From Globomyces pollinis-pini (Eukaryota; Chytridiomycota; Chytridiomycetes; Rhizophydiales; Globomycetaceae): 64,000 nt of DNA. Position 1 is the stretch's first letter, and every line of letters starts with the position of its first letter. Made by a program: the position numbers and the translations under genes. Shown here piece after piece: positions 30,062 through 55,969 of this stretch. A model generated the notes under the pieces. It worked only from the letters and a program-made list of their open reading frames with translations, was not told the origin of the DNA and searched no databases. Location: positions 99,406 to 163,405 of the forward strand of contig MU621097.1 of the NCBI GenBank assembly GCA_025399215.1, read 5' to 3'.

Positions 30062-32694
30062 TTAAATCAATTGACGTTCTAATCCATCACAAATACGAAT
30101 CAACTCTAGATTTTCTTGAATTTTTCCTTCCAATTGTCTTTCCAAAGTATTATTGTGACATTCTAAACGACTTATCTTGGCACGACTAGCAACTAGTTCT
30201 TTTTCGTATTGAGTTTGAACTTTAGCAATTTCCACATTTGCCCTATTGATGAGTTATTTTAAACTATTTACTCTTCCAATTTTGATTCTGCATGTTCTCT
30301 TAAAGTATCAAATCTAACTGTTGATTTCTGTAAATCTTCCTCTAGCTTTGTACAAGTATCCCGTAAAGAGCTATTAACCTAAATTGATTAATTGCAAATT
30401 CCAAACCTCTCGAAGATCAGCAAAATCGACTCGAAGTTGTTTAAAATTCAATGTTTGCGAATCCAATTCACCTTTTACATTATCAGTTTGACGAACTTGG
30501 TCCAAGTACTTGGCATTCAGAGTCTCGTAAGATTTATTGGCGTTTTTAACTTCAAGTTCACGGTCATCTAAAAATTTAAGTTTAATCAAGTTTTACTCAT
30601 CATTTTTTGGATAGCCAGTTCCCATTCACTTAACGTTCGCATCATCTTCTTTTTGTCTGATTCCAACGTTCGATTTTTCATAGACAACTCCAAAATTTCT
30701 TGCTGTGCCAACCCTAACTGATTCTCAAGCTAGTAAAAATAAATATAATTAAAAATATTACATCGGCTCGAAGTGCTTGTAATTGCTTATCCACATCATG
30801 CTGGCTATATCTGATGGCAGACTTTGGAGAAGCCATTGGTTCAAAGGTATCAAGTAAAGATACTGGTGGTGTTGGTGCATGATGCCCATGTTCCGGTAAT
30901 TTTGAGGTGGTGGGAGATTCAAATGACATCATCCAATCTTGAGGAATCAACGGATCAAATTCCACGTGCTGATTTTGATTTCGTTTTAACCCTTCCACAA
31001 CTTTATGCACTTTTGGGGTGACATTTGACTTTAATGGTGATGGAGCGACAGATTGGATACCATTGCCGTAAGAACTCATGGGGACATATTGGGGATTCAT
31101 TTTGTATGGAGAACTAGGGAAGGTTTCGTTTGATATGCTGTGATAATTATCAGAAATGGTTTCTGCTTCCAACCCATCTTCAACTTCAGTAACCTCAGAT
31201 CTACTATAATGCTCGTCTAGAAGTAGAATAAAAATGACTAAAAGATACCTGTATGGATAGTTTCTTTAACGGGAGTAACATTTGACCGAATTGAGTTAAA
31301 TTCTTTTCTTTCAGTATTCATACTTGTTGCTACAGATGGGCTTTTTTCTATATCATTATGCGGTTTAGTTGGTGTCTGAGTTGCCGATGACTTCATTTCT
31401 ACAGAAGGTGGTGTGGAAGGAGAAGCCAAATTTCTACTAAACTGATTTGGTTTGGGTGTTTGTAGCAAAACATTATTGGATTTCGACAACAAAGGTGATT
31501 CGTCAATTCTTTTGACACTAGTGGATCGTTCTCGTTCAGCACGTTCCAATAGTTGCTCTGTTCTGTCAAATAGTCCTTGAGATTTATTGTCCATATTGAT
31601 ATCATTTAACATTGATGCATGTGTATTCAATGCAGGATCAGTAACGGCATCACTGTGGAATTCCGTTTGATTAAAATCTGAAATCTCATCATCGAAACCA
31701 TCTACAATAAGTAAAACATTCAAGTACCATCATAAAAGGACACATCTTGTATGAAACTTTCATTTGAGATATCCACATCTGGTGAATAAGTTATAGTTGA
31801 TTCAGATAGTGTATGTAATAGAACAGGTTTAGTGGGAGTTTTTTGGAAATAGGTAGATTCATATGATTCATTATTTGGTGTGTTTAATCTTTTTTCTAAA
31901 CATTAATTAATGTATTCGAACCGATTGGAGAAGTTGTCTCAAATGGAGAAGGAGACTGTAACGTATTGTTTGACGATTTGTGATGACTAGTGATATCTTC
32001 ATCTGGAATAGTTTCCTTTAACTGATCCTGAATTCTAAAAGTCATGTCATCCGCTCGTTCATGGATGCTATTCCGAGATAATTTATTTTTCATAATAACA
32101 GGTTCATGTAGTGAATTTGCAACTTCAGCTTGAATAGCCAATTCCATCAATGGATTTGATTCCAATTGATTAGAATCGATATTAAATTTATCTGAAAAGG
32201 GTGCTGAATCAGTATGATTAATTGAATCCGGTTTTAAATTCAAAGTTGATGATGATCGCATTATTGTTTTTGGTTTGGATTCGACAGAAAAAGACATGGA
32301 TCTTGGCTTTTGTAAAGGAGTCTATAATGAATAAGGAGTTGAATGATATTACCTTCTTATGAAATAAGGTTCAATGAGAATAGTTACCTAGAAATAAGTC
32401 AAGTTCAGACAAAACCTTTTTTGGAGAAACCCAAGAAGTCATAGTATCCCACAGAGAAGGACCGTCGGAAGATTCAGAAAAGTTTAATTGTTCGTTTTCT
32501 TTAACAGTTTTAATGTCCATCAAGCCAACAGTAAGCACCCTTTCAGTTACTATAAGTTGATCAGTACCTAATTATCAAAGAATATGATGATCATACCTAA
32601 TAATTGTTAATATTAAAGTTTATAACCTTTTCTTTGGTGTATCTCTTTGCCAGCTTCTTGAATCCAGTTTGGAAGAATTTGTTGAAATTTTCAT
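30062..32694 (-). CDS. TACC-domain protein
   Basis: Ten exons give 749 residues. The C-terminal 170 residues or so are a continuous coiled coil whose end (DTLREHAESKLEEANVEIAK, then LERQL, ENLELIRICDGLERQL) follows the TACC domain pattern of heptads and the conserved ICD element. The N-terminal two thirds are disordered and Ser/Thr/Pro-rich with many TP and SP sites, typical of cell-cycle kinase targets. TACC proteins (for example fission yeast Alp7) recruit XMAP215-type polymerases to spindle poles and microtubule plus ends. Two of its introns are built of three abutting AG|GT units (32540-32626 and 32322-32415). Removing both whole arrays is needed for the frame to close, which supports the exon model. 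Confidence 0.75.
32322..32415 (-). other. Tandem intron array of three units in the TACC gene
   Basis: Between exon ends ...SPKK and TPLQKPR there are 94 bases that divide at two AG|GT junctions into units of 28 (32388-32415), 35 (32353-32387) and 31 nt (32322-32352). Each unit begins with GT and ends with AG. Only removal of all three keeps the frame (phase 0 on both sides). Both flanks are clearly coding. Confidence 0.6.
32540..32626 (-). other. Tandem intron array of three units near the 5' end of the TACC gene
   Basis: This 87-base intron splits at AG|GT junctions into 30 (32597-32626), 29 (32568-32596) and 28 nt (32540-32567). The first unit has a TATTAAC branch-like site. The upstream exon carries the proposed ATG at 32694. 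If translation instead begins at the ATG just after the array, this would be a 5' UTR intron. Confidence 0.55.
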
Positions 32695-41237: not shown

Positions 41238-42370
41238 TTAAATCTTTTGGCGAGTAACTCCCAGTTCCAATAACTTTGCAAAAGCCATTGCGAAATCACG
41301 ATAGAAAGCTTCTTTATCCTTGGCGTACAAATCAACAAATACTTTGAATTTTGGATCCCAAATCAATGCCATATCTGAAGGCAACATCATCAATTCATCA
41401 TCTTCATCAACATATTGTTTTGGACCATCCCATTTCTTTTCCTTCCATTCTAAAGTGGACAATAGAATGAAGTATTGGTTGGAAAATCTGGTTGGAGTGT
41501 GAGTCCATGCTATTGCAATTAGAAAACAAATAAATCATACGACCACTGAAACCACTACGATCAGTATGGCAGCGACCCAGTGAATGAGCTCCAGAAAGTG
41601 CAACAATTTCTTGGTCATTGAATCCCATTCCTAACCATCAAATACGTTCCATTTACTGTAGAAGATATCACGGACATGAGAAGCACCTTGAGCAGCATCA
41701 GGTAATCTACCCTAAATCATTAAAGGGAGAAATATTTACATTTGGTGGGATAACTTTTGCAGGTTGAGCTTGTGCAGCCTTTGGGTTTACATCAGATCGA
41801 CCTCCCTTCCAAGGAATTTTTGGACCGTTCATAGCCTCAATAGCTACACATGCACTTAAAGTCCATAAATCTGCATAAGAGATCCAAGGGTGTTTTTGCT
41901 TGATAGGTTCAAGGAAAGCTCTAAAAATAATGAGAAATTGAATTGGAAGAATCAAGCAAATTGGTTAAAATGAAGTGTTAATATTCCAAGAATTGGCAGA
42001 GTAAAATAGTCTTACCTAGCATGTTCCAAACCAGCATTAGCACCATCAGTAGATTCAGGTTTAAATCTCATAGTAGCACCGTTAGAACCTATATATAATT
42101 AAAAAGCAAGCAAGATACCTTAGTATTAAGATATTAGACTGTGATACCACCACTTTTAGATTTTGAGTCATAAGTTCCACTAGCATGCCAACCCAAACGA
42201 ACCAATACAGGTCCGATATGGCCATCATCGTAGCCATCTTTTTTCAAGATAGCTCTAATATCGTTACGAACAGGTTCATATTTTTGGTCCATTTGAGATA
42301 AAAAAGAGAAGATTTGAACCTCGTGATGACGGATGAGATGAGAACGTGAATGCGGTTTAACTAGCAACAT
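41238..42370 (-). CDS. CCP1: Cytochrome c peroxidase (class I heme peroxidase)
   Basis: Six exons give 296 residues. Class I signatures are complete: distal [11 protein letters not shown] (Arg, Trp, His), the ISYADLWTL helix, [18 protein letters not shown] with the proximal His, and the [13 protein letters not shown] loop. It reduces hydrogen peroxide, with cytochrome c as donor if it is in the mitochondrial intermembrane space. Two starts are possible. ATG 42370 adds 26 residues rich in Arg, His and Ser, resembling a mitochondrial presequence; ATG 42292 gives the bare enzyme. Introns include a two-unit AG|GT array at 42089-42147 and a 95-nt intron at 41921-42015 without such junctions. Confidence 0.93.
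42089..42147 (-). other. Tandem intron pair in the cytochrome c peroxidase gene
   Basis: The 59 bases between KSG and GSNGATMRF split at AG|GT into 29 (42119-42147) and 30 nt (42089-42118). Both flanks are conserved peroxidase sequence, and the join is in phase 1 only when both units are removed. Removing just the first leaves an in-frame TAA a few codons later. Confidence 0.6.
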
Positions 42371-52462: not shown

Positions 52463-55400
52463 TTACTGCATATTATTGACTGTTTTAAAGTCATCCCATG
52501 CCTTATTCAAAACTGAAAACACAGAGGTAGCTATCAATCTTTGTTCAGTGGTAGCACCAGATCCAACCTGGTATTAATTGTTAGTAGATTACCTTATCAG
52601 GGTGTACTTTGGCAACAGCTCGCATGTACTTGACCTTAACCTGATTTGGAGTAATAAGCTCCCCTATACTAACAGGCTTCCATCCACTATCCACCCAAAG
52701 TACATTTTCTAAAGAGGATATTAAAGCACGTATATTGGTTTCTTTATTGGATTTCCAGGCTTCAATCTGTAATGGTTAATATGAGTCATTACCTTGTCGT
52801 TAACGGTATCGTGTAAAGCAAATTTTTCTGCTTCTTCCTGCTCCACAGCTTCATTTGCATCCCTCAACTTCTGTACGGCTTGATCGACTGCATTCTTTAC
52901 AGCCGCGGACATAACTCTAAATGTTATTACCAACTAACACATTACTTTGGTGTCACCGGGTCTGCAAGAGTTTGCTTTGGTTGAAGTGCAGCTAAACAAC
53001 GAGACAAGCCTAACGAACAGCCTTTTGTATTAGAATCTAAACCCATTATTTTCTTGTAATCATCGCGCGCCTTCTCCCATTGCTCTAGAGCCTCGTAGGC
53101 AGTTGCACGTCGTAACAGACACTTCACATCATTTTCTTCTTTCGTTAAAACCAATTCGCAATCAGCAACCACCCCTCTATAGTCTCCCGTTTTTAAACGG
53201 GCACCCGCGCGGTTATTATATAAGACAACGAGAGATGGGTGATTGCTGGGCAACATTTCAATGGCTTTTGTATATTGCACTTCTGCATCACCAAACTGTC
53301 CTTTCTTGAAAAATTCATTACCCTTTTCCTTCACTTCGTTGGTTTGAATACTGAGCGGGTCGGTCGCAGCAACAGGTTTAGGAGCACTGGTTTGTAAATT
53401 CTTAGAGAATGGCACAGATACTTTTGCGGGCTTGCTATCTATAACGTTTCCAAGCAATGATATGGTATCTTTACCAATATTGGCGTTTGGTTCGCTGTGA
53501 AATCCTAACAAATCTACTACTGGCGTGGTGTTTTCAGCTTTTGTATCCTTGCTATCAAACTTTCTGTTTCGTTCGAGTGGTGTTTCAATCGATTCTACAG
53601 ATTCCACTTCGCGTATCTGTTTTTGAGCGGAAGGTATGGATTTCTCGGGAGATTTTCGATCATCCTTGTGTTGCGTTGGTGTCCATTTACTTTGTATGTC
53701 AATCGACGCCTTCTTTTGGCTTGTGGGAGAGGAATCAAATGTATCTTTGTACGCAGTCTTAGACCAAGATTCCTCATTGATTGGTTTCGAGGATGATTGA
53801 TTTTCTTTGTTATTAGCCATGGCTAAAACTTTCTTTTTAGAAAATTCGAAAGCATCCTTGGCCCCCTTGAAAACCGATAGCCCAAACTGAGATGCTGTTT
53901 CAGCAATCTTGGAAGTGTCAATAATATTTGTCTTTGACTCTTCATTCAGCGAAAAGGAAACACGCCGACCAGCGTTTCTCTTTACCAACAGTTCAATTGC
54001 TAGTTCAACATCACCTTCGCTCTCTAAAAGCGCATTTTTCGCAGGCTCTTTTTTGAATCCCATTCCTAGTAGTTGCTGTATATCTGCTTCTGTATAAGGA
54101 ACTGGTGGTTCATCACTAGGTAGAGTAGGCTGTTCATTAAGCAAAGCATCCGCCGCCAGCTCAACATTGAAATCATTTTCTTTCAGTGCTTTTTCTGCAG
54201 AAGCTTTATCAAAGCCCATCTTCACCAATTGGTCTATTTCGACGCTCAAGTTTGGTGTTCTAGGTGCTGATGCAGGTGATGCTCTTGATGGTGATGAGTC
54301 TGTATAAGGAAGAACCTCAATTCTATCATGCGAGAACATCTCTGGCTTTTTGCTAGTAGATAAATTTGTGTTCCTTTGGATAGATTCAGATGGGTTGCTT
54401 TTAATGAAGTTAGTTACAGGAGACTTTTGTTCTGTTGGCTTTTGTTGGCCAAGGAAATCTAAATCAAACACATCGGCAGTCTGAGCTGTATTGCCTGTTA
54501 CCACTGGGTTTTCAAGAAATGAAAGCTTGCCCCACTGATCATCAATTGAATCGTTCTGGTTCAATGGTTTTGATGCGGGAGTGATTTTGTTTAACGGAAG
54601 TGTTGCTGACATTGGTCTTACAGTGTTGGGACCTGTTGAAGTACTCTTAAAACCAGCATCAAATCCCAACAAATCTTGAAACTGATTTGCTTTTGCTTGT
54701 GTTTGATTTGAATTTGGTTTCAAAGGTGGCATTCCAAATGATTGATTGTTATTTACATTTTGATTAACTGGTGCTACTTGCGACGTTCTTTGGTTCTGAC
54801 TAATGGGGTTGGGCAATTGGGTTTGGTTCATTGCCTGGTAAGGTCCTGAATTGTTGTTTACAGATTGCTGTGGTGCATAAGCAGAGTTACGACCGTTTGG
54901 TACAATAGGTTGATTATAATTTTGCATTTGTCCAATCTGTGGTTTTATTTGATTAATTGCTGTTGATTTGTTCGCGCTAATTTCCATTGGACCTAATAAA
55001 TCTGCAAATGCATTAGGATTTTGATTTTTTTGAGAATTTCCAAATTGTGGAGTGAAACTGTTTGTTTTCTGGTGAGATGTTAAGTTTGTGGTTGGACTGA
55101 AACTTGATGCTTTTTGGTGGGACACTAATAAAGAATTAAAGCATAATAATATATACCTAATGGTCTAGAATTATCATTTGCAAAATTCAATGAAGGAGAA
55201 AAAGCATCATTAACTTTTGGCGTATCCATCTGATTTAATTTCTGACCCATTGGTTTAAATTGAGAAGGTTGAGTATTGAAGTTTACTAAACCTCCAAAAG
55301 CATCTTCCTGAACCTTTTATTAAAATGTTTATATAAGAAATGAATGAAAATATAAATGAATTGGGTCAAGATGAAGGTTACCTATTAACATTAGGTTATA

Positions 55401-55483
55401 ATAACATACCTAAAATGCTAATTAACTATAATAATGCTACCTAAGATAGTTAGTAATTTAATTTTAACCTTTTGATTAGCCAT
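52463..55483 (-). CDS. SWA2: Auxilin/Swa2-type clathrin uncoating co-chaperone
   Basis: Six exons give 917 residues: a long disordered N-terminus rich in Asn, Gln and Ser with AFADLLG-type clathrin- or adaptor-binding boxes, two UBA-like domains (QLVKMGFDKASAEKALKE and IQQLLGMGFKKEPAKNALLE), a TPR domain (EKGNEFFKKGQFGDAEVQYT onward), and a C-terminal J domain with AVAKVHPDK. The HPD tripeptide stimulates Hsc70 ATPase to strip clathrin from vesicles. This UBA-TPR-J order is that of yeast Swa2. The first exon encodes only MANQK and is separated from the rest by a 155-nt array of four AG|GT intron units. If translation begins at a later in-frame Met (MGQKLNQ), the array is in the 5' UTR. Confidence 0.9.
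55314..55468 (-). other. Tandem intron array of four units in the auxilin gene
   Basis: The 155 bases between the MANQK exon and the next exon divide at three AG|GT junctions into 28 (55441-55468), 31 (55410-55440), 28 (55382-55409) and 68 nt (55314-55381). The first unit has a perfect TACTAAC branch site; the next two have TTAAT and CCTAAT. The last acceptor could also be six bases further on (TTCAG), which keeps the frame. Confidence 0.6.
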
Positions 55484-55632: not shown

Positions 55633-55969
55633 ATGAAATCTATTTCAATTCTTTTATTAATCACTTCTACTTATGCTGGATTCTTTGATTTCTTTAATCA
55701 AGATGATGAACCTCAACAAAAGCAACATTCTCAACCTAAAGATGAAGGTATTCAAATGATAAAATTCTGAAAAGTATAGGTATTCCAATTATAATATTCA
55801 TAAAAGTATAGGTTGTCAAAATTATATCTGTCCTGATGAATCTTGTGCTTCTGATCCTATTCTTTGTCCTTGTCCCAAAAATCAAATAAAATGTAAATCA
55901 GCTAATTGGTACTTGTGTTTACAAGCACATCAATCTTGTTCACAGTTTCAAGCTCAAGTATTTCAATAA
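55633..55969 (+). CDS. LCL2: Lcl2-like secretory-pathway protein
   Basis: Two exons give 90 residues: a signal peptide (MKSISILLLITSTYA), a short acidic and Gln-rich linker, then a Cys-rich core GCQNYICPDESC, CPCPKNQIKCKSANWYLCL and a final Cys near the end. This matches the CxxYxCPD...CPCP...KC...C layout of yeast Lcl2, a fungal ER/secretory protein linked to protein quality control. The intron (55748-55811) is two near-identical 32-nt units. Phase 1 is kept only if both are removed; if just the first is removed the frame stops at TAG. Confidence 0.82.
55748..55811 (+). repeat. Tandemly duplicated intron (two 32-nt units)
   Basis: Unit 1 is 55748-55779 and unit 2 is 55780-55811. They are equal in length and identical at 27 of 32 positions, differing only at unit positions 7, 11, 16, 21 and 22. 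Each starts GTATTC and ends AAAAGTATAG. They abut as AG|GT with no exon between. Confidence 0.85.

Follow-up and report, generated by a model that had tools for sequence, protein, structure and literature searches.

The Lcl2-like gene of the chytrid Globomyces pollinis-pini carries two complete 32-nt intron units that directly abut one another, and we are highly confident that an intron was indeed duplicated in tandem here. The gene lies in a stretch of 64,000 nt of contig MU621097.1 (the window; plain coordinates refer to it), which also encodes a C1-THF synthase 100% identical over 762 aa to a protein of Globomyces sp. JEL0801. It is just as close to certain, in our judgement, that the pair is one member of a class of arrays of abutting introns found throughout the genome. 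The class comprises runs of 2 to 10 units, mostly of 24-35 nt, separated by zero-length exons. We further consider it quite likely that the complete account is correct, namely that a tiny spliceosomal intron was duplicated whole and in tandem, as one case of this class, by the four-step mechanism set out below.

Exon 1 of the Lcl2-like gene (55633..55747, plus strand) begins with an ATG at 55633, has a signal-peptide-like start and closes with the codons ...GAT GAA G, while exon 2 (55812..55969, plus strand) opens with GTTGTC, encodes a cysteine-rich core and ends with a TAA stop at 55967-55969. Between them, on the same strand, lie unit 1 (55748..55779, GTATTC...TATAG) and, adjoining it, unit 2 (55780..55811, GTATTCC...TATAG). 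An earlier note on this DNA had described abutting GT...AG units with no exon base between them, and measurement confirmed this at an identity of 27/32; the mismatches fall at unit positions 7, 11, 16, 21 and 22, and the first six and last ten bases are the same. The pair has the top TRF score in the window (101, followed by 87 and 86), and in simulated sequence (order-3 Markov, 6 x 264 kb) tandem pairs with periods of 24-36 nt were never as similar. Compared with single introns, unit 1 has its donor at the 88th and its acceptor at the 48th percentile, and unit 2 at the 71st and 79th. The branch-point-like TCTGAA of unit 1 (55766..55771, plus strand) starts 14 nt from the 3' end of the unit and scores 3.1, with 21% of short introns at or below this value; the corresponding ATTCAT of unit 2 (55796..55801, plus strand) starts 16 nt from the end and scores 4.1 (50% of short introns at or below). 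Each unit thus has in its DNA what is expected of a U2-type intron, a GT donor, a branch-point motif, an AG acceptor and a size typical of the genome, and together with the identity of the two units this bears out the proposal that a complete intron was copied beside itself.

Removal of both units joins the two exons into a 90-aa ORF, and removal of one unit leads to early stops. The frame test asked which single G[T/C]...AG removals leave more than 85 codons and found two, the 64-nt GT-AG removal of the pair and a 58-nt GC-AG removal (55722-55779) that leaves unit 2 as coding sequence. The claim that the frame is kept only by removing both units therefore stands for GT-AG introns but fails once the GC-AG alternative, which is also open, is admitted. 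The pair has the features of a tandem array: complete introns abut, the units are copies, and among GT-AG removals the protein is intact only if all units are taken out. The predicted protein has no Pfam match, no database homologue and no paralogue, and the name Lcl2-like refers to what we take to be the cysteine pattern of Lcl2. The gene is absent from the predictions of our self-trained gene finder, probably due to its short length. A DNA search of the 18.5-Mb assembly, which skipped very common words, returned no further copies of the two units, and an introner origin for them was rejected on the ground that no other copy was found.

Tiny introns occur in Paramecium and Stentor. To describe those of G. 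pollinis-pini we used a home-made self-training gene finder on a sample of 264 kb, made up of the window and 20 stretches of 10 kb. It predicted 285 introns, 268 of which are 23-36 nt in length; ten are 70 nt or longer. The undecomposed introns include ten of 74-255 nt and, in the 264 kb, none of 42-55 or 57-67 nt. Judged by this size distribution and by their signals, the two Lcl2-like units are both normal introns, whereas introns of about 64 nt are almost absent. The branch motif derived by EM, which was trained on introns of the same 264-kb sample that was tested, approximates W-Y-T-N-A-Y and mostly starts 11-16 nt upstream of the intron end. A G at donor position +5 is present in 6/10 of the long introns (70-255 nt) and in 48/268 short introns of this sample (p 0.005), as though a longer intron called for a stronger donor.

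The earlier note had also regarded such a duplication as rarely caught in the act. This view cannot be kept, as arrays of this kind are numerous in the genome and range from 2 to 10 units. Motif patterns, for which overlapping matches within one array were counted repeatedly, gave 168 matches genome-wide for a pair of adjoining GTAT units (against 54 with the pattern reversed), 304 for three AGGTA at unit spacing (control 110) and 105 for three TAGGTA at a spacing of 24-36 nt (10 for the reversed pattern). A permuted TAGGTA-type motif gave a single match and the reverse of that permuted motif five, and at doubled spacing the TAGGTA pattern gave 17 (control 3), with 15 of the 17 on arrays already known from single spacing. 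When chains were allowed, the gene finder placed nine of them among approximately 313 intron positions of the 264 kb (AG|GT junctions), a figure that depends on a reduced charge for further units; without that reduction there were two chains with four zero-length junctions, compared with three exons of 1-29 nt in the same sample. In a first decoy run, in which the decoys were restricted to two units and the AG|GT run was free to take more, chains at the decoys were almost absent. A like-for-like run limited to two units gave five chains at AG|GT, against 0, 0, 1, 0, 0, 0 and 0 at seven decoy junctions. The gene finder favours intron-like units, and decayed arrays would escape it. Extrapolation of ten chains per 264 kb suggests that there are several hundred arrays in the 18.5 Mb.

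Forty further loci were fetched, 20 hand-picked as array-like by eye and 20 taken in order from the three-AGGTA list after leaving out two clusters already in the set. At a low score threshold (3), and with several weak gene models (for example L061 and L032), a chain within a predicted gene was called at 16/20 of the hand-picked and 17/20 of the list-order loci. The list-order loci without a chain were L046, L056 and L060, and L046 (G000:C2:114782-114855) was rejected as an intron array, being an exact 23-nt tandem repeat with an AGGTA in each copy and no predicted chain. At L004:1664-1948 a 40-nt sequence with AGGT in its cycle is repeated in tandem 6.8 times. The full set comprised 50 distinct arrays, and of their 166 units 165 are 22-37 nt in length; the array of L025 is also contained in L018 and was counted once. 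Relative to single introns, the nine arrays of the 264-kb sample sit closer to where the coding sequence begins (p 0.018). Within the window, a chain of 28+31+28+68 nt (55314..55468, minus strand) is predicted by the gene finder after the 5-codon first exon of a gene at 52463-55483 that is UBA/TPR-like by eye, and its inner junctions are also matched by the AGGTA and TAGGTA patterns. Two further chains on the minus strand, of 30+29+28 nt (32540..32626) and 28+32 nt (32356..32415), are predictions of the gene finder only.

Arrays also interrupt conserved genes. Seven array junctions in six genes, encoding cytochrome c peroxidase (CCP), Ran, PHYHD1, gamma-tubulin, Sey1 and Arp1, align without gaps to homologues of solved structure; the six were picked as recognised proteins, and 6/6 aligned gaplessly. 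In the CCP gene, the gene prediction and the alignment place a 59-nt intron on the minus strand that divides at AAG|GTATC into a unit of 29 nt (42119..42147, GTATC...CTAAG) and one of 30 nt (42089..42118, GTATC...TATAG), and the alignment to yeast CCP is gapless here. The CCP gene itself (41238-42292, minus strand) was split in two by the gene finder. The Ran array has units of 32, 32 and 28 nt, the first two being identical, and 36/39 residues across the site are identical to yeast Gsp1. The longest array, in PHYHD1 (L057:3486-3770; G000:C12:42085-42369), consists of ten units in 285 nt (29, 28, 28, 28, 28, 27, 29, 29, 28 and 31 nt), of which units 2 and 3 are identical; it sits between the residues FK and QP, where the alignment to human PHYHD1 is gapless. 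The public G. pollinis-pini model of PHYHD1 contains 19 extra residues that are units 4 and 8 read as coding sequence, and the Boothiomyces orthologue is without them; the extra residues are there probably because gene callers disallow zero-length exons. The gamma-tubulin gene (L062; G000:C15:9530-10790) has two separate arrays, of four and then two units, both seamless. Sey1 has three units within its GSQSTGK/STLLN motif, and Arp1 likewise has an array of three units. For Ran and gamma-tubulin the only good matches in the organism's own genome are the array loci (97-98% and 90-99% identity; next best at most 39% and at most 44%), and since these are the sole close matches they are not spare pseudogenes.

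If the 64 nt were a single intron, the duplication would be real, but the spliceosome would splice the first donor directly to the last acceptor in a single step, leaving the AG|GT in between inert. This would give the same protein, and it is physically possible because ten long introns of 74-255 nt are predicted, and one of 95 nt in CCP is supported by homology. One-step removal implies, however, that only the first donor, the last branch point and the last acceptor matter. A branch motif above threshold is nevertheless present in 94% of the 116 non-last units, in 90% of single introns and in 58% of shuffles (p 0.32 against single introns, p 4e-23 against shuffles). Inner motifs are retained even in diverged units, in 91% of the 43 non-last units with less than 60% identity to all their array mates, against 54% of shuffles. 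Segments bounded by AGGTA and defined independently of the gene finder behave alike: at 23-36 nt the motif is found in 88% of 59 segments from the list-order loci and in 87% of 15 segments from the 264-kb sample, compared with 52-56% of shuffles, whereas at 37-60 nt (14 segments) it is found in 29%, compared with 48% of shuffles. The size classes of 42-55 and 57-67 nt, moreover, are those empty of undecomposed introns. Finally, +5G occurs in 6/9 long single introns but only in 3/36 first donors of arrays of at least 70 nt (p 0.0007), and the Lcl2-like donor is GTATTC. A point on the other side is that A at +3 is less frequent in the first donors of arrays than in single introns (0.76 vs 0.89). 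Because of the intron size, the branch motif in each unit and the first donors without +5G, we favour unit-by-unit removal through zero-length exons as the likely mode, as judged from sequence, and regard one-step removal as an unlikely, though not negligible, alternative.

A different question is whether the units were copied from one another at all. Adjacent units are more alike than units from different arrays (116 pairs, p 1e-10), and 25 of these 116 pairs, spread over 16 of the 50 arrays, lie above the 99th percentile for unrelated units; the Lcl2-like pair ranks ninth of the 116 by similarity. The other 91 adjacent pairs do not exceed that percentile and are not detectably similar. A new intron might instead have arisen by exon duplication, or by insertion at an AG|GT proto-splice site beside an old intron, without any intron copying. 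Many other arrays have units without detectable similarity, as this would lead one to expect, and the start of exon 2, GTTGTCAAAAT, is 7/11 identical to the start of each unit, a level matched by 1.7% of single introns. This exon likeness is weak, however, as 7/11 is also reached by 2/31 of the single introns whose next exon starts with GT, and the idea that duplicated exon 2 sequence gave rise to the intron was set aside as weakly supported. An identity of 27/32 over the entire unit, both ends included, is best explained by whole-unit copying, making the non-copying origin very improbable for the Lcl2-like pair. Still less probable is that the units are not introns but belong to a minisatellite within a pseudogene or non-coding DNA, or reflect an assembly error. 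The Lcl2-like gene has no database match, as a pseudogene or non-coding stretch might not, but the units show intron size and branch motifs, the same architecture is found in conserved genes with intact flanking codons, and the array loci of Ran and gamma-tubulin are the only close matches in their own genome; the units of most arrays differ, and hence are not simply duplicated reads. Whole-intron duplication is supported, at the level of sequence similarity, as the origin of the Lcl2-like pair and of 16 of the 50 arrays, about a third. The others represent either more ancient copies or introns gained independently at one site.

We propose the following route for the duplication of whole introns. 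The tight size distribution suggests that introns would be recognised by intron definition, as units of approximately 29 nt. DNA slippage or end joining between the AG|GT at the two borders of an intron could then duplicate exactly one intron. GT starts the exon after 10/28 arrays and after 31/290 single introns (p 0.001), an excess in keeping with slippage from the AG|GT of one border to that of the other, although at least one of these exon GTs (L026) may belong to an additional unit that the finder missed, which weakens the argument; we regard duplication mediated by AG|GT as having an even chance of being correct. The copy would be harmless, bringing its own donor, branch motif and acceptor, so that each removal would rebuild ...AG|GT, the next unit would follow and the mRNA would be unchanged. 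The elements on which this third step depends, the signals of each unit and the intact protein, are present in the DNA. Arrays may then expand in the manner of minisatellites and diverge, their units staying spliceable. On balance we lean towards seeing these introns as minisatellites of a kind, a splicing-neutral unit of approximately 29 nt that would expand in place to as many as ten copies, be removed serially through zero-length exons at a single codon and vary in number between strains.

These observations suggest that introns in G. pollinis-pini can multiply like a DNA repeat without harm to the gene. The arrays are a natural system, spread over many loci, for how new intron sequence arises, and they also probe repeated action of the spliceosome at one exon border with no intervening exon. 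With 2 to 10 units per array in conserved genes, one could measure the effect of unit number directly, and the array-derived residues in the public PHYHD1 model show that they are relevant for annotation. If the minisatellite-like behaviour is real, it represents a local mode of multiplication that differs from introners, from exon-derived gains and from stwintrons.

Among the matches listed from the open PMC literature, there is no description of runs of abutting complete introns. The 0-nt ratchet points of Drosophila are, in the excerpted text of their description, located in long introns and need a cryptic exon that is later skipped (PMC8605326). They share with the arrays an AG|GT inside the intervening sequence, present at the Lcl2-like site, and stepwise removal that regenerates a donor, as would be expected here. 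Unlike ratchet segments, those of G. pollinis-pini are nearly all complete introns of approximately 24-35 nt with their own branch motif, their runs reach ten, and they can be tandem copies. In stwintrons, according to the excerpts, a splice element of the external intron is split by an internal one, so that the order of removal matters (PMC7138796, PMC8469720, PMC12403724). Both are complex intervening sequences of fungi, for which consecutive standard reactions dependent on intron definition are described or, here, proposed. The Lcl2-like units, however, join precisely at AG|GT, and each has its full set of elements; arrays abut without nesting, any order of removal would be workable, and an array can exceed two units.

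In potato, an intron is reported to have been gained through tandem duplication. In Drosophila, tandem-duplication gains with AG|GY proto-splice sites start from exon sequence, in the excerpted account (PMC2891723). The resemblance lies in a tandem duplication bounded by AG|GT-like sites and spliced out, which here is a prediction; those gains turn an exonic piece into an intron at a new position, whereas in the present case it is a finished intron that is copied, and its position does not change. In Cryptococcus, introns multiplied by repeat expansion and gained introns match others of the same gene, as the excerpted source describes, and abutting copies like those of G. pollinis-pini are not mentioned in that excerpt (PMC2395259). 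Both cases have in common the multiplication of introns within a gene by expansion of a DNA repeat. Introners, in the part of the source available, are intron copies inserted in many genes (PMC9860276), and they too make the copying of introns a source of new ones. Introners are dispersed, whereas the Lcl2-like units were found at one place in 18.5 Mb (common words skipped), and their increase is local.
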